Shown here: piece after piece, positions 16,041 to 25,207 of the stretch | Position numbering within the stretch: the first letter of the stretch is position 1 | Layout: the number at the start of each line of letters is the position of its first letter | NCBI RefSeq assembly: GCF_030651995.1 | Contig: NZ_JAUSBN010000038.1 | Location: 62,001-126,000 of the forward strand | Direction: 5' to 3' | Length of the DNA: 64,000 nt | Source: Reyranella sp. | Lineage (GTDB): Bacteria > Pseudomonadota > Alphaproteobacteria > Reyranellales > Reyranellaceae | The notes under the pieces: generated by a model | Database searches by the model: none | The model's input: the letters and a program-made list of their open reading frames with translations, nothing else | What the model was told of the DNA's origin: nothing | Translations under genes and position numbers: made by a program

Positions 16041-16086
16041 TTGCCGCCATCCCAAGCGCTCCCTATAAGTGAATTGATAATAATTC
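16041..16086 (+). promoter_or_regulatory. Sigma-70-like promoter with overlapping Fur-like palindrome upstream of the FecI-type gene
   Basis: TTGCCG (16041-16046) and TATAAG (16064-16069) are spaced by exactly 17 bases, placing the start of transcription near 16076. The AT-rich palindrome GAATTGATAATAATTC (16071-16086) covers that point. Its GATAAT core resembles Fur/iron-regulator boxes, so repression under iron sufficiency is the likely logic. The palindrome and spacing are seen; the regulator is inferred. Confidence 0.55.
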
Positions 16087-16099
16087 GCATATAGAGGTG

Positions 16100-16618
16100 A
16101 TGGAAGGCGTGAGTTCGGCAGACCCGACCCTAGCTCTGTATCTGAAACATCGGGGCTCGCTGGTGAACTATGCCAACGGCATCGTCAGGGACAGGGCCGG
16201 CGCGGAGGACGTCGTGCAGGAGGCCTATCTGCGGTTCAGTTCCGCCAGCAGCGACGAGCGGCTGATCTCCAATCCTGTCAGCTACCTCTACCGCATCGTT
16301 CGCAATCTCGCGCTCGACTGGGTGAACCGGACGTCCGAAACGGCTTCGACAGGGCAGGTATCGGCGCTCGAGCAGGTCGCCCAGGAGGGACCCACGGCCG
16401 AGGACGTGCTGCACTATCGCGACGAGCTTCGGGTACTGGCCGATGCGCTGGCCGAACTGCCGGAGCGGACGCGTATCGCCTTCACGATGTATCGCCTCGA
16501 GGGCTGCACGCTCCAGCAAGTGGGTGACCGGCTCGGCGTCTCCATCGTGCGTGCTCACCAACTCGTGAAAGACGCGATCCTCCATGCGGCGCGCCGTCTG
16601 GACAGCTTCAACGGCTGA
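16100..16618 (+). CDS. FecI-like ECF sigma factor (iron-uptake type)
   Basis: The 172-residue protein has the two ECF domains: sigma-2 with AEDVVQEAYLRF near residues 35-46, and SYLYRIVRNLALDWVNR near 63-79. Sigma-4 has LAELPERTRIAFTMYRLEG near 116-134 and a helix-turn-helix TLQQVGDRLGVSIVRAHQLV. This is the pattern of FecI-type factors that work with a FecR anti-sigma and a TonB-dependent receptor, both of which follow directly. The start is ambiguous: ATG at 16100, GTG at 16097 or GTG at 16109. Transcription is probably iron-repressed through the palindrome just upstream. Confidence 0.92.
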   Translation: MEGVSSADPTLALYLKHRGSLVNYANGIVRDRAGAEDVVQEAYLRFSSASSDERLISNPVSYLYRIVRNLALDWVNRTSETASTGQVSALEQVAQEGPTAEDVLHYRDELRVLADALAELPERTRIAFTMYRLEGCTLQQVGDRLGVSIVRAHQLVKDAILHAARRLDSFNG

Positions 16619-16642: not shown

Positions 16643-16670
16643 CCCTTAAAAGTCGATGTCGCTCGCCGTC
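16643..16670 (+). promoter_or_regulatory. Predicted ECF promoter for the anti-sigma gene
   Basis: CCCTTAAA (16643-16650), a 16-base spacer and CGTC (16667-16670) lie in the gap between the sigma and anti-sigma genes. The same two blocks with the same spacer occur in the next gap at 17704-17731. Pseudomonas iron-starvation sigma promoters have TAAAT-N16/17-CGT, which is very similar. Transcription would start near 16678, upstream of the GTG at 16716. Confidence 0.55.
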
Positions 16671-16715
16671 TGTTGGTTGTGGTCGTCCAGAGGGGGCGAG
16701 GTAGAGTGCAGACGG

Positions 16716-17687
16716 GTGACTTCCGACGTGGACGATAGCGATTCCCTGCGCAGCGAAGCGGTGGATTGGCTGGTGCGGATCCAGGCCGCCCCGGCGGATG
16801 CCGCTGCCCGCGGGGGGCTGGACTCGTGGCTGGCGACCAGCGAAGCGCATCGTCGCGCCTATCGCAGCGTCGAGAGGGTCTGGAAGCTGACGGGCGAGTT
16901 GCCGTTGGTTACGTCTTCCTCTTCCGGAGAGCTCGTCGACCTGTCACGCGTTCGGCGAACACGGCACGCTTGGGGCCTCGCGGCTGCGGTCCTCGCGGCC
17001 TGTGTCGCGCTCTGGTTCTTCCCGAGCCTGAAGCTGCACTTCCAGGCCGATCATCTGACGGGCGTCGCCGAGCTGCGCGAATTGACGCTCGAGGATGGCA
17101 GCATCGTTCACTTGGACGCGGCCAGCGCCATAGCGGTGCGCTACGATAAGGGGCGTCGCGAAGTCGAGCTGTTGGCGGGCCAGGCGTTCTTCAAGGTCAT
17201 ATCTGCCCGCGACCGGCCGTTCGTCGTCACCGCCGGCAAGGTGGCGGTCACCGTCAAGGGCACTGCCTTCGATGTCGGGTCGTCCCGGGAGGGGGTGTCC
17301 GTTGCCGTCCAGTCGGGCACCGTCGAGGTCCTGATCTCCGGCAGCGAGCGAAACGTACTGTCCACCCTGACGCGAGGCGAGCGCATGGTGGTGGGCAGGC
17401 AAGGCGCCTTCGCCCGCTCCCAGGTCGCCCCCGGGGACGTCGCCTCGTGGCGCGAACACCGGCTCGTCGTCGACGGCGCCACCCTGGGCGAGGTCGTGGA
17501 CGAGCTGGGCCGCCATCATCGCGGTGTCATCATGGTGAGCGACCGCAGTCTGGCGGACCGCCGCATCACCGGCGTGTTCGATCTCCGCCGGCCGCTCGAG
17601 GCGCTGCACACGGTGGCCCGGACCCAGCACGGTTCGGTCCTGGAGATTTCGCCGTACCTCACGATCGTCTCGTCCTCGAAGCCCTGA
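16716..17687 (+). CDS. FecR-like anti-sigma/sigma regulator
   Basis: The 323-residue inner-membrane protein has an N-terminal DUF4880-type segment (SEAVDWLVRIQAAPADAAAR, residues 13-32, then RAYRSVERVW), which binds the sigma factor in the cytoplasm. One transmembrane helix lies at about 85-102 (AWGLAAAVLAACVALWFF). A periplasmic FecR domain follows (ELTLEDGSIVHLDAASAI, GQAFFKV, FDVGSS) with a C-terminal DUF4974/STN-like part ending ITGVFDLRRPLEAL. It should relay the signal from the receptor's STN domain. A longer frame from the ATG at 16656 would begin upstream of the predicted -10, so the GTG at 16716 is preferred. Confidence 0.9.
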   Translation: MTSDVDDSDSLRSEAVDWLVRIQAAPADAAARGGLDSWLATSEAHRRAYRSVERVWKLTGELPLVTSSSSGELVDLSRVRRTRHAWGLAAAVLAACVALWFFPSLKLHFQADHLTGVAELRELTLEDGSIVHLDAASAIAVRYDKGRREVELLAGQAFFKVISARDRPFVVTAGKVAVTVKGTAFDVGSSREGVSVAVQSGTVEVLISGSERNVLSTLTRGERMVVGRQGAFARSQVAPGDVASWREHRLVVDGATLGEVVDELGRHHRGVIMVSDRSLADRRITGVFDLRRPLEALHTVARTQHGSVLEISPYLTIVSSSKP

Positions 17688-17703
17688 ATATTTCTTCCGT
17701 CGA

Positions 17704-17731
17704 CCCTTAAATCCGCACGCCTCCGCCCGTC
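17704..17731 (+). promoter_or_regulatory. Predicted ECF promoter for the TonB-dependent receptor gene
   Basis: CCCTTAAA (17704-17711), 16 bases, then CGTC (17728-17731): the same blocks and spacing as at 16643-16670. The start of transcription would fall near 17740. This fits the known FecI scheme in which the sigma factor drives the receptor operon. Confidence 0.6.
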
Positions 17732-17739
17732 CTCTGATT

Positions 17740-17758
17740 GCGAACGCAAATCGTTCGC
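17740..17758. promoter_or_regulatory. 19-bp palindrome at the predicted start of receptor transcription
   Basis: GCGAACG (17740-17746) and CGTTCGC (17752-17758) are perfect inverted repeats around a five-base AT-rich centre. The element lies where transcription from the predicted ECF promoter would begin, so it may be a repressor operator or a 5' hairpin in the mRNA. Confidence 0.5.
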
Positions 17759-17811
17759 GTCATATCAGCGTCTCTATGGTTCGTCTGCCTGGAGCAGCGG
17801 GGGAGTTCGTC

Positions 17812-20283
17812 GTGTTGCCAGACCGGTCCGGTAGTGTCGCGCATGCAGTAGTCATCGCCACAGTCGCCTTGGCGATCGGCGCTCCCACCGCCATCGCGCA
17901 GACGGGGGGTGGCGACGGCCAGTCACCGCTGGAGGCGCAGGCCGGCAGGACGACGACGTTCGACATTTCGGCGCAGCCGCTCTCGCAGGCCTTGATGGCC
18001 TTCGGCCGCCAGTCGGGCATGCAGATTGCCGTCGATTCCGCGGCCGTGTCGGGCAAGACCAGCGCCCCGGTCACGGGCTCGATGACGGCTGATCAAGCCC
18101 TGCGCCGGCTGCTGTCGGGATCGGGGCTCACCTACCAGTTCACCTCGGCCAACGCCGTGACCGTATCGAGTGCAGCAGTGCCGGCTCCGGCGGGCTTGCC
18201 GGGCTCAAGCGCGCTGGTGCTCGATCCGGTTCGCGTGCAGGCCGTTCCCACGACTCCGCCGCAGGGCGAGATCGGCAACCAGTCGCCGGCCTATGCCGGC
18301 GGACAGGTGGCGCGTGGCGGCAAGGTCGGCCTGCTCGGCAACCGCGACTACATGGACACGCCATTCAGCGAGACGACCTACACCAACCAGTACATCCAGA
18401 ACCAGCAGGCGCGCACGCTGACCGACGTCCTCGCGGGCGATCCGACGCTGCGCTCGGGCATCCCCAATGGCAACGTGTTCGACGACCGCGTCATGATTCG
18501 CGGCATCACTGTGCTCAATCCCAATTTCGGCCTGGGTGGCCTCTACGGCATCGTGCCCAATCAGGCGGATATGACGGGCATCGAAAGGGTCGAGGTCTTC
18601 CGCGGTCCGACCGCCTTCCTGAACGGCGCGCTGCCCAGCGCCGTCGGCGGCACGATCAACCTCGTGCCCAAACGCGCGACCGACGCGCCGATCACGCAAG
18701 GCACCCTTCTTTACAATTCCGACTCTCAACTGGGTGGCTCGCTGGACGTCGGACGCCGCTTCGGCCCCGACAACGAGCTCGGTCTGCGGGCCGGGGGCAC
18801 CTATTATTCGGGCGACACCGCCGTTAACAACCAGAACGCCGAACGGCTGGCACTCACTCTCGGCTTCGACTACCGCAGCGATCGCACGCGCATCGACGCG
18901 GATCTCGGTTACCTCAAGCGCGATGTGGGTGCCTTCCAGGGCGGCATCTTCCTGGCGGCCGGCGTCCAGCTTCCGCCAGCCCCCTATGCCCGCCAGAGTT
19001 CCTATCAGCCGTGGGAGCGGTTGCAGGGCAACGACGTCTATGGCGCGCTGCGCTTCGAACACGACATCGTCGAAGGCCTGACCGGCTTCATCAAGGCCGG
19101 TGCGCGGCGCAGCAATTATACGTCGGTCTACTTCAATCAGAACATCGTGAACTACAACGGCAACACGACAACCTCGTCGGGCGGCCAGTACATGTCCACG
19201 GTCGAGGCGCTGTCGCTCGAGGCGGGGCTGCGCGCCACTTTCCATACGGGTCCGGTCAAGCACGAGGCAGCGCTGGTCGGCGACTACCTGAAGACCCAGA
19301 ACTTCACGTTCAACAATCCGATCGCTACCAAGGTCAATTCCAACATCTACAGTCCGACGTTCATTGCGCAACCGAACTTTTTTGGGTTCCGCACCCAGGG
19401 GCCGCCGCTCACCTCGGACTCCGTCTACGGCAGCATCGGCATCGTCGACGCGCTGTCGTTCAACGGCGACATGTTCCAGATCATCGGTGGTGCGCGCCTG
19501 CAGCGCCTGCAGACGGCAAACTACAGCACGGTGACCGGCCTGCCGACCAACGGCAACAATCAGAGCGTCGTGTCACCCTCGGGCTCCTTCGTCTTCAAGC
19601 CGGCGAAGGAAGTCATGGTGTACGGCAACTACATCCAGGCGCTGCAGCAGGGGCCGGTGGCGGGCGCAGGTCTCACCAATGCCGGCATGCAGTTCCCGCC
19701 CTTCGTCACCAATCAGTTCGAAGTCGGCGTGAAGGTCGACTTCGGTAACGTCGGCGCCACGGTAAGCGCCTTCCAGATCACCATGCCGAGTTCCTACACC
19801 GATCTCGCGACCAACACGCTCGTCACCAACGGACAACAACGCAACCAGGGCATCGAGTTCATTGCGTTCGGCGAGCCGGCGCCGGGTCTCCGGCTGCTCG
19901 GAGGTCTCACGCTTCTCAACGCGATCCAGGCCAATACCCAGGGCGGCCTGACCAACGGCAAGCAGGCGGTCGGAACGACACCTTTCCAGGCGTCGCTGGG
20001 GCTCGACTGGGACACGCCTTACGTCAAAGGCCTCGGCGTGATGGGACGCGCCGTCTACAACGGACAGGTCTATCTCAATGCCGCCAACACCCAGGCCGCG
20101 CCGCCGTGGACCCGGTTCGATGCCGGCCTGCGCTACACGTTCGATCGGACCGACGGCAAGCCGGTCACCCTGCGCGCGAACGTCATCAACGTGTTCGATG
20201 CCAATTACTGGATCGCGACGACCTCGTTCTTCTTCCAGAACCAGCCGCGCACCTTCCTGTTGTCGCTGACCGCTGATTTCTAG
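17812..20283 (+). CDS. TonB-dependent siderophore-type receptor with STN signalling domain
   Basis: An outer-membrane uptake channel of about 823 residues. A signal peptide ends at A-I-A-Q near residue 30. The secretin/TonB short N-terminal domain follows (TTTFDISAQPLSQALMAFGR through VTGSMTADQALRRLLSGSGL), which marks receptors that signal to FecR. A TonB-box-like LDPVRVQA precedes the plug (MIRGITVLNPNF, VEVFRGPTAFLNGALP, GGTINLVPKRA). The 22-strand barrel ends in the usual aromatic-terminated strand (LTADF). The GTG at 17812 has GGGGGAG seven bases upstream; an ATG at 17776 without a ribosome site would add 12 residues. The plug resembles the siderophore-receptor subfamily, but the ligand is unknown. 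Confidence 0.93.
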   Translation: MLPDRSGSVAHAVVIATVALAIGAPTAIAQTGGGDGQSPLEAQAGRTTTFDISAQPLSQALMAFGRQSGMQIAVDSAAVSGKTSAPVTGSMTADQALRRLLSGSGLTYQFTSANAVTVSSAAVPAPAGLPGSSALVLDPVRVQAVPTTPPQGEIGNQSPAYAGGQVARGGKVGLLGNRDYMDTPFSETTYTNQYIQNQQARTLTDVLAGDPTLRSGIPNGNVFDDRVMIRGITVLNPNFGLGGLYGIVPNQADMTGIERVEVFRGPTAFLNGALPSAVGGTINLVPKRATDAPITQGTLLYNSDSQLGGSLDVGRRFGPDNELGLRAGGTYYSGDTAVNNQNAERLALTLGFDYRSDRTRIDADLGYLKRDVGAFQGGIFLAAGVQLPPAPYARQSSYQPWERLQGNDVYGALRFEHDIVEGLTGFIKAGARRSNYTSVYFNQNIVNYNGNTTTSSGGQYMSTVEALSLEAGLRATFHTGPVKHEAALVGDYLKTQNFTFNNPIATKVNSNIYSPTFIAQPNFFGFRTQGPPLTSDSVYGSIGIVDALSFNGDMFQIIGGARLQRLQTANYSTVTGLPTNGNNQSVVSPSGSFVFKPAKEVMVYGNYIQALQQGPVAGAGLTNAGMQFPPFVTNQFEVGVKVDFGNVGATVSAFQITMPSSYTDLATNTLVTNGQQRNQGIEFIAFGEPAPGLRLLGGLTLLNAIQANTQGGLTNGKQAVGTTPFQASLGLDWDTPYVKGLGVMGRAVYNGQVYLNAANTQAAPPWTRFDAGLRYTFDRTDGKPVTLRANVINVFDANYWIATTSFFFQNQPRTFLLSLTADF

Positions 20284-20290
20284 CGCCTCC

Positions 20291-20611
20291 ATGGCGAAGC
20301 CTGCCTCTGCTTCCTCTTCCGCACCCGTCGGCGCCGGCAAGGTGGTGGTGCGCGTCCTCGCCATCGTCTTGGGCGCCTATGCGGCCAGTGCTGGGGCGGT
20401 GGCGGCGGGCGTCGCCGGGCTGATCCTGGCCGGCGTGAACAAGAGCGACGCCTTCACCGTCTGCAGCATCCTGGGCTTCCTCCTTTATGTGGGGCTGGCG
20501 CTCTGGGCGGCCGCCGCGCGCCGCCTGGTGCCGATGGTGGGCACCCTCCTGCTGGTCACGGCGGCGGGAACCGGGATCGGCTTGCTTCCCACCCTGATCG
20601 GCGGGGCCTGA
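20291..20611 (+). CDS. Small inner-membrane protein, DUF3649-like
   Basis: The 106-residue protein has three hydrophobic segments (VVRVLAIVLGAYAASAGAVA, SILGFLLYVGLALWAAAA, VPMVGTLLLVTAAGTGIGLL). It occupies the position, between a siderophore receptor and a PepSY membrane protein, where DUF3649 proteins are found in many iron-uptake loci. It starts eight bases after the receptor gene and its stop is two bases from the next start. The function is unknown; a helper role in siderophore-iron handling at the inner membrane is inferred from context. Confidence 0.7.
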   Translation: MAKPASASSSAPVGAGKVVVRVLAIVLGAYAASAGAVAAGVAGLILAGVNKSDAFTVCSILGFLLYVGLALWAAAARRLVPMVGTLLLVTAAGTGIGLLPTLIGGA

Positions 20612-20612
20612 G

Positions 20613-22172
20613 ATGGGCGCCAGCTTCCGGGAATCGATGGGGTGGCTGCATACCTGGGCCGGTCTGGTGATCGGCCTGCTGCTGTTCGCAGTCTTCTGGA
20701 CCGGCACGCTCTGCGTCTTCGACCGCGAGATCGACCGCTGGATGAATCCCTCGACCCGGCTGGTCTATTCAGGAGAGCCGATCGCGATCGACGGTTTGCG
20801 GGAAGAGGCGGGCCGGCTTTCGCCGCGCACCGCGCCGTGGGCGATCGTCTTGCCGACACCGCGCGAGCCGGTGCTCTCGATCGGCTATCGCGGAAGAGGG
20901 GGCTTCGAACGCACGCTCTTCGATCCGCTGACGTTCAAGACCGTCGCGCCGGCCGAGAGCTGGGCGGGGACGCGGTTCTTCTTCCCGTTCCATCACACGC
21001 TGCATCTCAGGATCTGGCATCTCGGCACCTGGCTCACCGGCCTGGCTGGCGTGGCGATGATGGCCCTCTGTATCTCGGGTGTGATCATCCATCGCAAGAT
21101 CTTCGTCGACTTCTTCACATTGCGGCGCTCGCGCCAGCCTCAACGCCTGCTGCTCGACCTGCACAACACAACCGGAACACTGGGCTTAATTTTCTACTTC
21201 GTCATGTCGTTCTCGGGCGTGACCATCCTGGCGTCGGTCTACTATCCGTCGGGCGTATGGGTGGCGTTCGAGGGCGGCCGCTCGGGCTATGTGCGCGACA
21301 CCTACGACGTCTTCAGCCGCCCGCACCTCAATCAGCCGGGGCCGCCTCTCGGCTCGCTCGATGCGATGGCCGCGACGGCCCGCGAAGCCTGGGGAGGTCT
21401 CAATCCCGGCCTGGTGCGTGTGTTCCATCACGGTGACCGGAATTCCTATGTCGAGGTGAGACCGTCGATCGAGGCCGAGGTGGCGATGCGCACCGACCCC
21501 TTCTTCTTCGACGCCGCGACGGGCGCCGTGCTTTACCGCACCTCCATCCGGGAGACGACGCAAGTGCAGCAGTTCCTGACCGGCCTGCATTTCGCGCAGT
21601 TCCGGCACTGGACTTTACGCTGGCTCTATTTCGCGCTGGGCCTGCTGGGCTGCGTCCTCATCGTGACCGGCTTGCTGTTCTGGATCGAATCGCGGCGCAA
21701 GGCGCATGCGGCGGCCGATTGGAAGGGCGTCGGCTTCGTCGAAGGTCTGACGATCGGCGGCACCGGCGGCATGGTCCTGGCGACGCTCGCCTTCTTCGTC
21801 GCCAATCGTGTGTTGCCCTCGGGTGCGACTTTCAGGGGCGTGGCCCGCTACGAACTCGAGATCTGGGTCTTTCTTGCCGTCTGGGTGCTGAGCTTCGCGC
21901 ACGGTTGGATGCGATGCGGGGCTGCCTGGATCGACCAGTGCCGGCTGGTGGCCGGGCTCTGCATCCTTGCCGTGGCTTTGAACGGTGCCACGACCGGCGA
22001 TCACGTCCTGCGGGCCTGGACCGACGGCAAACTGGCAGTCGCCGGCATGGACCTCGTGCTGCTGGCCGGCGGGTTTGCTGCGGCCGTCACGGCGTGGCGC
22101 CTGCAGCGCCGCCGGCAGGGAACGGCACCCAAGCAATTCCGACATCATCATCTGGAGGGCCAATCGTCATGA
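20613..22172 (+). CDS. PepSY-associated transmembrane protein
   Basis: The 519-residue protein has an N-terminal membrane helix (LHTWAGLVIGLLLFAVFWTG), a periplasmic part and further helices, with the PepSY_TM family pattern including HHTLHLRIWHLGTW and the later TGLHFAQFRHWTLRWLYFAL. Members of this family in iron loci are proposed ferric-siderophore reductases or membrane helpers; the conserved histidines would allow heme or metal binding. Its stop overlaps the next start (ATGA). The reductase function is an inference, not shown by the sequence. Confidence 0.85.
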   Translation: MGASFRESMGWLHTWAGLVIGLLLFAVFWTGTLCVFDREIDRWMNPSTRLVYSGEPIAIDGLREEAGRLSPRTAPWAIVLPTPREPVLSIGYRGRGGFERTLFDPLTFKTVAPAESWAGTRFFFPFHHTLHLRIWHLGTWLTGLAGVAMMALCISGVIIHRKIFVDFFTLRRSRQPQRLLLDLHNTTGTLGLIFYFVMSFSGVTILASVYYPSGVWVAFEGGRSGYVRDTYDVFSRPHLNQPGPPLGSLDAMAATAREAWGGLNPGLVRVFHHGDRNSYVEVRPSIEAEVAMRTDPFFFDAATGAVLYRTSIRETTQVQQFLTGLHFAQFRHWTLRWLYFALGLLGCVLIVTGLLFWIESRRKAHAAADWKGVGFVEGLTIGGTGGMVLATLAFFVANRVLPSGATFRGVARYELEIWVFLAVWVLSFAHGWMRCGAAWIDQCRLVAGLCILAVALNGATTGDHVLRAWTDGKLAVAGMDLVLLAGGFAAAVTAWRLQRRRQGTAPKQFRHHHLEGQSS

Positions 22173-22876
22173 AACCCATCTTCGGCATCGCCGCCCTGGC
22201 GGCACTCTCTCTGTCGTTCGCCGTGCCGGCTTCGGCGCACCACATCTGGCTCGAAGTCGACGGTCAGGGCGGGAAGATCTACTTCGGCGAGTTCGGCGAA
22301 AACCTGCGCGAAGCCTCGCCGGGGGCGCTCGACAAGCTGCAGCCGCAGGCCAAGGTGGTCTCATGGGGCGGCGAGCGACCGTTGACCGTCCAGAAGTCGG
22401 CCAACGCCTACGTTGCCACCGGCAAGATCGACGACGGCGACAGCATCGTGGCCGAGGACATCCGCTGGCCCTCGTTCGAGCGCAAACGCGACAACAAGAC
22501 CGGCATCTACATGCCCGCGGCACGCTTCGTGCCGGACCGCGCGCCGCGGGCTGCGGTGCTGACGCTCGATATCGTTCCCAGGGGTGACGACAAGTTCCAG
22601 GTCGTCTTCAAAGGCAAGCCGCTGGCCAAGGCCAAGGTCGCAATCGTCACGCCGTCGGGCTGGGGACGTGAGGAGCGCACCGGGACCGATGGGGAGTTCG
22701 AGGTCAAGCTGCCGTGGCGCGGCCCGTATGTCTTCGAGGTGCACCACGATGACAATACCGCCGGCAAGCGTAGCGAACAGGCCTACGATTTCGCGAACTA
22801 CGTGACCACCCTGACGGTCGTGCAGCCTCAGGGGATCGAGTCGTTGCCGGCGCCTGCGCCGGCGAAGCCGCACTGA
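22169..22876 (+). CDS. Periplasmic DUF4198-type protein
   Basis: The 235-residue protein has a signal peptide ending A-S-A near residue 23, directly followed by [12 protein letters not shown]. Such an N-terminal mature His motif is typical of DUF4198 proteins and of related NikM/CbiM-associated periplasmic proteins, and suggests metal binding. A carboxypeptidase-regulatory-like beta domain follows ([39 protein letters not shown]). It is translationally coupled on both sides (ATGA upstream, TGATG downstream). Its presence inside the iron module suggests a metal-chaperone role. Confidence 0.8.
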
Positions 22877-23214
22877 TGCAGGCGGTCCTGATCGCTGCCG
22901 TGCTGGCCGTCTCGTACTTGGGCTTTGCGTTTCTCGCGCTCAGCCAGGATCGGCACTGGCTTCATTTCAGCGGCGAGCGCCATTGCCCGCCGCGGATCGC
23001 CCGCAGCCTGCGCATTGCGGGCTATGCGTTGTTGATCGTGGGGCTAGGGCTGGCGCTCTTCCGAGATGGGGCGGGCTTTGGTTCGCTGGTGTGGGGTACG
23101 ACGCTGACGGTCGGTTCGTTTGCCGTCGTCTGCACGCTGACATGGCGGCCGTACTGGCTCCGGCCGCTCGCCCTGGTCTGTCAACGTCTTGCCCGAAGAG
23201 CCGTGGAATCATGA
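22876..23214 (+). CDS. Small inner-membrane protein, DUF3325-like
   Basis: The 112-residue protein has three hydrophobic helices and the DUF3325-like pattern [12 protein letters not shown] early, then an Arg-rich loop before [21 protein letters not shown]3325 genes regularly accompany DUF3649 and PepSY genes in FecIR-controlled receptor operons. It starts in the stop codon of the DUF4198 gene and overlaps exbB by four bases. No biochemical function is known for the family. Confidence 0.72.
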
Positions 23215-24047
23215 AGTTCGTTGGTCGTCTGCTGGTCGTTCTTCTGCTGCTGCCGTCGCTGGGGTTCGCGCAAGTCCCGGCCACGACGGACTCGGCACCG
23301 CCGGCTGTTCCAGCGCCCGCGGCCGCGCCCACCGATGCCGCGGCGCCCGCGGCGGCATCTGTCGCTTCACCCACCGAGCCGCCGGTTGCGGCGCCGGCGC
23401 AGGCGGTTCTGCCGAAGGACCTGTCGGTCTGGGGCATGTTCATGGCGGCGGACTGGGTGGTTCAGGCGGTGATGGTGGGCCTGGTGCTGGCCTCGGTGCT
23501 GACCTGGACGGTGTTCGTGGCCAAGAGCCTGGAACTGGCGATGGCAGTGCGGCGGCAGCGGCGCCTGCTGGCGGGGCTTGATTCGGCGGCCTCGCTCGAC
23601 AAGGCGCCGGCCAGCGACCTGGTGGCGGCGGCGCAGGCCGAGCAGAGGCTGAGCGCCGACACGGTCGACGATCGCGACGGGCTGAAGGAACGCGTGGCGT
23701 CGCGGCTGGAGCGGCTGGAGGCGGCGACGGGCCGGCGGATGCTGAAGGGGACGGGCGTGCTGGCGACGATCGGCTCGACGGCGCCGTTCGTGGGCCTGTT
23801 CGGCACGGTGTGGGGGATCATGAACTCCTTCATCGGCATCTCGCGCTCGCAGACCACCAACCTCGCGGTGGTGGCGCCCGGCATCGCCGAGGCGCTGCTG
23901 GCGACGGCGCTGGGGCTGGCGGCGGCCATTCCGGCGGTGGTGATCTACAACCACTTCTCGCGCCGCGTGACGGCCTACCGGGCGCTGGTCGGCGACACCT
24001 CGGCGGCGGTGCTGCGGCTGGTCTCGCGCGACCTGGGACGGAGGTAG
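23211..24047 (+). CDS. exbB: ExbB, proton-channel subunit of the TonB motor
   Basis: The 278-residue protein starts with a signal-like helix ([17 protein letters not shown]) and an Ala/Pro-rich linker to about residue 65, the long form of ExbB. It then has the three MotA/TolQ/ExbB helices, including [20 protein letters not shown] near residues 183-202 and [20 protein letters not shown] near 224-243. With ExbD it uses the proton gradient to drive TonB. The start ATG overlaps the DUF3325 stop. The locus therefore carries its own dedicated energiser. Confidence 0.95.
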
Positions 24048-24050
24048 CCG

Positions 24051-24464
24051 ATGTCGGTGAAGCTGGACCATGGCGACGACGAGCTGGCGGAGAACCACGA
24101 GATCAACGTCACGCCGTTCATCGACGTGATGTTGGTGCTGCTGATCATCTTCATGGTGGCCGCACCTCTGGCGACGGTCGACGTGCCGGTCGACCTGCCG
24201 GTGTCGACGGCGGAGCGGCAGCCGAAGCCGGACACGCCGCTGTACCTGACCCTGAAGGAGGACCTGTCGTTCACGCTGAAGGACACGCCGGTGAGCCGTG
24301 AGGCTCTGGCGAAGGCGCTGGACGAGGCGACGGGGGCCAGGAAGGACGAGCGGATCTTCCTGCGGGCCGACAAGGCGGTGCCCTATGGCGAGCTGATGCA
24401 GGCGATGAACGTGCTGCGGACGGCGGGCTACCTGAAGGTGGCGCTGGTCGGGCTGGAGCAATGA
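24051..24464 (+). CDS. exbD: ExbD, TonB-motor subunit
   Basis: The 137-residue protein has a short cytoplasmic N-terminus, one transmembrane helix (INVTPFIDVMLVLLIIFMVA, residues 19-38) containing the essential proton-carrying aspartate at position 25, and a periplasmic ExbD/TolR domain. It lies three bases after exbB and overlaps the TonB gene by four bases. Confidence 0.96.
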   Translation: MSVKLDHGDDELAENHEINVTPFIDVMLVLLIIFMVAAPLATVDVPVDLPVSTAERQPKPDTPLYLTLKEDLSFTLKDTPVSREALAKALDEATGARKDERIFLRADKAVPYGELMQAMNVLRTAGYLKVALVGLEQ

Positions 24465-25207
24465 GGGAGGGGCTGCGCTGGATCGGGGCGTTCATCTTCG
24501 TGCTGGCCCTGCACGCGGGCGCGATCCGGCTGGCGCTGGGCTGGGTGCACGGCGAGGTGCCGTATTCGCCACCGCCGGCGGCGATCATGCTGGAGCTGGC
24601 GCCGTTGCCGGCGGCGCCGGAAGCCCTGCCCAACGAGGCGCCGCCGGGGCCGGAACTGAGCGAGGTGATCCCCGAGCCCGAGGAGCCGCCGCCGGTGGAG
24701 ATGCCGCCGCCGGTGCTGGCGGAGGTGACCTTGCCTGATCCCGAGCCGCCGCCGCCGCTCGACCTCAAGCCGCCGCCGCCCAAGCCGAAGCCGATCGAGA
24801 AGAAGGTGGAGAAGAAGCCGCCACAGCCCAGGGTCTCGGCACCGCAGGCGGCACCGGAGCCGGCGCGGACGGCCGCTGCGCCGATGCCGGGCGCCTCGGT
24901 CGAGCCGCCGTCCAACACGCTGCCGACCTGGAAGGGTCTGCTGCTGCGGCACCTGGAGCGCCACAAGCGCTACCCATCGGACGCGCAACGGTCGCGGCAC
25001 GAGGGCGTGACCTATGTGCGGTTCACGATGAGCCGCGACGGCCGCATCCTCGCCGCGCGCATCGAGCGGCCGTCGGGGCATGCCGCGCTCGACCAGGAGG
25101 GACTCGACCTGCTGCAGCGGGCGCAGCCGCTGCCGCCGCTGCCCCAGGACCAGCCGGGCGAAAGCCTCGAGATCGTCGTGCCCATCCAGTTCCTCCTCAA
25201 GAGGTGA
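24461..25207 (+). CDS. TonB family energy-transducing protein
   Basis: The 248-residue protein has an N-terminal membrane anchor (WIGAFIFVLALHAGAIRLAL, with His18 in the helix as in TonB). A long Pro/Glu then Pro/Lys periplasmic spacer covers about residues 40-150. The C-terminal TonB domain contains HLERHKRYPSDAQRSRHEGV and ends VPIQFLLKR. It spans the periplasm to pull on the TonB box of the receptor. It is the last gene of the operon; the next gene is tail-to-tail with only three bases between, and no terminator is visible. Confidence 0.93.
   Translation: MREGLRWIGAFIFVLALHAGAIRLALGWVHGEVPYSPPPAAIMLELAPLPAAPEALPNEAPPGPELSEVIPEPEEPPPVEMPPPVLAEVTLPDPEPPPPLDLKPPPPKPKPIEKKVEKKPPQPRVSAPQAAPEPARTAAAPMPGASVEPPSNTLPTWKGLLLRHLERHKRYPSDAQRSRHEGVTYVRFTMSRDGRILAARIERPSGHAALDQEGLDLLQRAQPLPPLPQDQPGESLEIVVPIQFLLKR

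Follow-up and report, generated by a model that had tools for sequence, protein, structure and literature searches.

In E. coli, fecIR is expressed as one Fur-controlled transcript without autoregulation, Fur sites are found at both the sigma and the receptor promoters, the receptor promoter is read by FecI, and FecR is required for FecI activity (PMC9249621). According to a 2022 review, activation of the cognate anti-sigma gene is not a property of iron-uptake sigma factors, with HasI as the exception (PMC9249621). In Serratia marcescens, the sigma gene is Fur-controlled and does not activate itself, while HasI drives both hasS, the anti-sigma gene, and the receptor gene, each of which is preceded by a common -35-region sequence (PMC9249621, citing Biville et al. 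2004). In S. meliloti, putative transcript starts have been mapped 5′ of fecR and of the receptor gene SMc04205 with no promoter motif being recognised, and FecI overexpression did not raise expression of either gene (PMC6180224).

The Reyranella locus described here lies within a window of 64,000 nucleotides, by which we mean the whole stretch of DNA that was analyzed. It shares with E. coli Fec a three-part cell-surface signalling arrangement, Fur-like sites at the sigma and receptor promoters, and a receptor promoter predicted to be read by the sigma factor, but differs from E. coli fecIR in that fecR has its own conserved sigma-type promoter in a 97-nt gap. A preliminary description of this DNA had already set the locus against E. 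coli; the addition of fecR to the predicted targets of the sigma factor stands, while the contrast does not extend to the sigma gene, which here too has a Fur-like box and no ECF promoter. The simplest reading is that the wiring is HasI/HasS-like, a likeness of circuit and not of homology, where a putative sigma-type promoter that is the same as that of the receptor precedes the regulator gene, and the sigma gene carries a predicted Fur box without an ECF motif of its own sigma. In contrast to Has, which is a haem/haemophore system, the Reyranella receptor fits the siderophore model but none of those for haem, and its promoter carries a Fur-like operator. The gene order equals that of S. meliloti FecI/FecR/SMc04205, a system that differs in having neither a recognised motif nor a response to FecI overexpression.

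Gene content of the locus

The features of the locus are as follows.

16075..16089, + strand: Fur-like 7-1-7 box TGATAATAATTCGCA, 5′ of the sigma gene (motif in 49/58 related loci and in-genome pattern match)
16097..16618, + strand: FecI-like ECF sigma factor gene (Sigma70_r2, Sigma70_r4, sigma70-ECF)
16643..16670, + strand: putative ECF promoter of fecR, CCCTTAAA-N16-CGTC (exact match, genome uniqueness, conservation in orthologs)
16716..17687, + strand: fecR, GTG start (DUF4880, PF16220, and FecR domain, PF04773; start from orthologs)
17704..17731, + strand: putative ECF promoter of the receptor gene, CCCTTAAA-N16-CGTC (exact match, genome uniqueness, conservation)
17738..17760, no strand assigned: palindrome TTGCGAACGCAAATCGTTCGCGT, predicted Fur-type operator near the expected transcript start (conserved in 39/55 loci; position)
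17776..20283, + strand: TonB-dependent siderophore-type receptor with STN signalling domain (PF07660, PF07715, PF00593, TIGR01783)
20291..20611, + strand: small protein without Pfam match
20613..22172, + strand: PepSY_TM
22169..22876, + strand: DUF4198
22876..23214, + strand: DUF3325
ending at 24047, + strand: exbB
24051..24464, + strand: exbD
24461..25207, + strand: tonB

All parts of a FecIRA system are present: a FecI-type ECF sigma factor, for which the equivalog models of FecI itself score under their cut-off, a FecR protein with DUF4880 and FecR domains, and a TonB-dependent receptor with an STN domain (PF07660, residues 82-132) in addition to its plug and barrel. When assessed with profile models, the receptor passes the siderophore-receptor model and fails those for haem. 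The nearest named ortholog is that of R. massiliensis, whose sigma factor is 80% identical. The ORF list puts the fecR start at ATG 16656, inside the promoter; the R. massiliensis fecR frame opens at the place equivalent to GTG 16716, which is also where the alignment of close orthologs begins, and this GTG is therefore the preferred start. Downstream of the receptor, the genes from 20291 to the end of tonB at 25207 are presumed from their spacing to form one transcript with the receptor promoter, and because this close same-strand spacing continues to 25207, that promoter could serve the receptor and energy transduction together. Elsewhere in the same genome (contig C58), a second FecR-domain gene is found without an adjacent sigma gene, its neighbours being Hsp20-like and nitrile-hydratase-like genes, as named by eye.

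Two matching candidate promoter sites, one in each gap flanking fecR

Exact copies of CCCTTAAA-N16-CGTC occur on the + strand at 16643-16670 and 17704-17731, the first within the 97-nt gap between the sigma gene and fecR, and the second within the 88-nt gap between fecR and the receptor gene. The preliminary description had reported two sites here with an equal 16-base spacer whose letters are otherwise unlike, which is exactly the case. From the end of CGTC (-10) to the start codon, the distance is 46 nt for fecR (GTG 16716) and 45 nt for the receptor gene (ATG 17776). These are the only two exact matches in the 5.5 Mb genome, no extra combination of CCCTTAAA and CGTC is found in the window when spacer lengths of 14-18 are allowed, and 100 dinucleotide shuffles yielded no CCCTTAAA-N16-CGTC match. 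With one mismatch allowed, the whole genome holds 8 further scattered matches, versus 3 for a reversed control pattern. A chance origin, judged unlikely from the outset, is ruled out by the empty shuffles, the uniqueness of the pair in the genome, and its conservation in orthologs. A consensus scan of the region for sigma-70-type promoters or terminators returned none, a result that is weakly informative for an alphaproteobacterium.

Promoters read by PvdS and FpvI follow the pattern TAAAT-N16/17-CGT, and the layout of the Reyranella sites had initially been matched to this type. The A-rich -35 and the CGT core of the -10 are indeed alike; however, when counted in the PvdS way, the Reyranella sites read TAAA(A/T)-N15-CGT, one base short of N16/17.

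Conservation of both sites among relatives

Close orthologs carry both sites at matching places, with equal spacer length and different spacer letters, and R. massiliensis (L033) likewise has the two sites. The exact pattern was found in 9 of the 61 genomes of the genus that were scanned, and 11 of the 12 exact matches in the 60 other genomes fall at sigma/fecR/receptor loci, as identified by tblastn. The exception (L120:1501-1528, genome G050) lacks homologs of all three genes within the surrounding 3 kb. When the sigma-fecR gaps of 58 loci, trimmed of coding DNA beforehand, were searched for motifs de novo, CTTAAAA/CTGAAAA...CGTCT was recovered with a likelihood of 364, versus 102 for a shuffled control. 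When gaps were scored against a null of neighbouring coding DNA, 47/58 fecR gaps and 46/55 receptor gaps lay above the 99th percentile. To avoid circularity, the motif was also trained on receptor gaps alone, and in this form it was found in 40 of 58 fecR gaps and 5′ of the sigma gene in none of 58 loci. Autoregulation of the sigma gene was thus rejected, with the receptor-trained model finding no ECF motif upstream in 58/58 loci. The preliminary description had made its reading depend on the motif being conserved 5′ of orthologous fecR and receptor genes, and conserved it proved to be.

Covariation of the two sites and the recognition helix

The -35 element varies by lineage, usually in step at both sites of a locus. 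It reads CCCTTAAA in the Reyranella group, CCCTTGAA at loci L044 and L048, TTTGAAC in Oceanibaculum, TGAGACA in Novosphingobium, and CGGAAA in Caulobacter. The Ensifer/Rhizobiales loci L081, L090 and L186 show the form TGAAAA-N15/16-[CT]GT[CT]. Across 43 loci, the -35 elements of a locus agree at 7.09 of 9 positions versus 5.13 when permuted, a level reached in 0 of 20,000 permutations (P<5e-5), and this covariation persists with 24 representatives that share under 60% sigma identity. Spacer length also agrees within a locus (84% versus 51% permuted). In contrast, spacer sequences agree just marginally above permuted (P=0.04), so recent copying of one promoter into the other gap is unlikely, as the preliminary description had held for simple duplication, and the combination of agreeing -35 elements with barely agreeing spacers speaks for selection on the recognised bases, not recent copying, as what shapes the pair.

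The version of the -35 element also follows the sigma factor itself. An RAHQLVK-type recognition helix (sigma residue 152 and its neighbours) goes with a receptor -35 of CTT[AG]A in 13/14 loci, while other recognition helices do so in 0/29, an association for which a Fisher test overstates independence because the loci are related. Together with ortholog conservation and equal spacing, the -35 covariation and the helix association support the original proposal that the neighbouring FecI-like sigma factor reads both sites as ECF promoters, and indicate that both sites are promoters with a putative dependence on that sigma.

Distribution across FecI sigma factors

Among the 109 rows of a sigma tree, 46 of the 64 that make up one clade (support 100/99) have the fecR-gap promoter, and the other 45 rows all lack it. 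This clade is mostly alphaproteobacterial and spans many families. A further set of held-out non-alphaproteobacterial loci, picked by their FecR domain, had the fecR-gap site in 0/20 cases; the gap there is usually small or absent, and the sigma gene often ends near the FecR domain. The predicted fecR-gap promoter is thus a clade-specific trait with several losses. As a rule for all FecI systems it was rejected, given its absence from the 20 loci outside the alphaproteobacteria and from most alphaproteobacterial loci beyond the clade.

Within the clade, a clear fecR-gap site is missing in about a quarter of loci, and its two Pseudomonas members are without one. Two alphaproteobacterial members (L145 and L160) have 14 nt from the sigma stop to the FecR domain and keep the receptor promoter; they are apparent natural losses of the predicted feedback. 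The absence scored for L049 is probably artefactual, because the sigma frame runs past the site and genome G041, with an identical receptor-site sequence, has both sites. Loci of this mostly alphaproteobacterial clade were also seen on MAG contigs labelled Nitrospira (L057) and Stygiobacter (L068), a placement that reflects either mis-binning or transfer.

Fur-like boxes at the sigma and receptor genes

Overlooked in the preliminary description was a conserved palindrome directly 3′ of the receptor promoter. Across loci this element, TGCGAATGCGACGCATTCGCA, emerged unprompted from the motif search and was found in receptor gaps at the 95% level in 39/55 loci. For 30 of the 31 loci that were scored, its centre lies 17-29 nt past the -10. 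The box upstream of the sigma gene, found at the same level in 49/58 loci, has the same half-site with an ATAAT centre. In the sigma-fecR gap, a Fur-like box was found in 3/57 loci at the 95% level and 0/57 at the 99% level. The family consensus of the palindrome at 17738-17760 has inner bases CG..CG versus AT..AT in the box before the sigma gene. Palindromic Fur boxes of 19 bp have been described for Gluconacetobacter and Caulobacter. In the genome studied here, a copy of the palindrome with one mismatch lies on contig C7 (L131:1501-1519), flanked by bacterioferritin and a gene that by eye resembles superoxide dismutase, and a similar site precedes a ferric-iron-binding protein gene. The genome also has three FUR-family genes, which look by eye like Fur/Mur, Irr and Zur. 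The adjoining iron-protein genes and the presence of these three regulators support the assignment of the palindromes to Fur, whose binding is predicted, and the element at 17738..17760 is a probable Fur-type operator. The leader could instead act as an mRNA hairpin, for it can form a 7-bp stem with a 5-base loop; we consider this rather improbable, since the predicted fold is just mildly better than shuffled (z -1.9), while the palindrome has the same half-site as the box before the sigma gene and has relatives beside the bacterioferritin and ferric-iron-binding protein genes.

Proposed circuit and alternative readings

We favour, at a little over 80%, the reading of a FecIRA-type locus in which the adjacent FecI-like sigma factor would read a pair of promoters with matching sequence, one ahead of fecR and the other ahead of the receptor operon. 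Under low iron, relief from Fur would allow a little sigma to be made, with some FecR arising by read-through. Ligand at the receptor would then signal via the STN domain and FecR to activate the sigma factor, which would direct synthesis of more receptor and transport machinery, and of more FecR from the promoter of fecR itself. The extra FecR would most likely reset the system once the signal ends, as proposed for HasS. Because a Fur-like operator sits near its transcript start, the receptor promoter would depend on active sigma and on low iron together, while fecR would answer to sigma alone.

This feedback could be of either sign, since some FecR proteins act as anti-sigma and others as pro-sigma factors. 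If FecR were pro-sigma, as in E. coli, both sites would still be sigma-dependent and the positive loop would sustain or sharpen induction. This version is unlikely but deserves the most weight among the alternatives: E. coli FecI needs FecR for activity (PMC9249621) and the FecR of this locus has the same domain make-up, while HasI/HasS, the experimentally studied case of such wiring, behaves as an anti-sigma system (PMC9249621). More doubtful by far is the proposal that the receptor site is true and the fecR-gap site an unused relic or decoy, with fecR expressed by read-through from the Fur-controlled sigma promoter only. E. coli fecIR provides the precedent as one transcript without autoregulation (PMC9249621), and the quarter of the clade without the site is in keeping with it; against this, both elements are conserved at fixed spacing and covary with the receptor promoter in tens of loci whose spacers are unrelated, and a putative transcript start lies 5′ of fecR in S. 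meliloti (PMC6180224). The -10 cores CGTC and CGTT are common to several ECF groups. That the sites might on this account be read by another sigma factor, such as a general-stress ECF sigma, has the least to recommend it and seems very improbable, since the -35 version tracks the recognition helix of the neighbouring sigma factor, and the genome holds the exact motif nowhere else.

Implications for the FecI family

The locus appears to be a well-supported variant of a known circuit; no description of a sigma-read fecR promoter conserved across a clade was found in the literature searched. We lean towards a broader reading, in which a large FecI clade would typically, and perhaps ancestrally, be wired for sigma-driven synthesis of the regulator, which would then be no oddity of Serratia. 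Here, Fur would gate the sigma gene and the receptor, and with the regulator gene between them left free of Fur, the balance of sigma and FecR would follow the signal alone, while promoter pairs and recognition helices would co-evolve in lineage-specific codes. Most members of a supported FecI clade show the arrangement opposite to the rule of the 2022 review (PMC9249621), and this yields a prediction that applies directly to any member in culture. The promoter pair may also account for the unexplained fecR transcript start of S. meliloti (PMC6180224). Finally, the covarying promoter pairs offer a natural collection from which to read the -35 code of FecI-like sigma factors, by setting residues around position 152 against CTTAAA, CTGAAA, TGAACG, TGAGACA and TCGGAAA.
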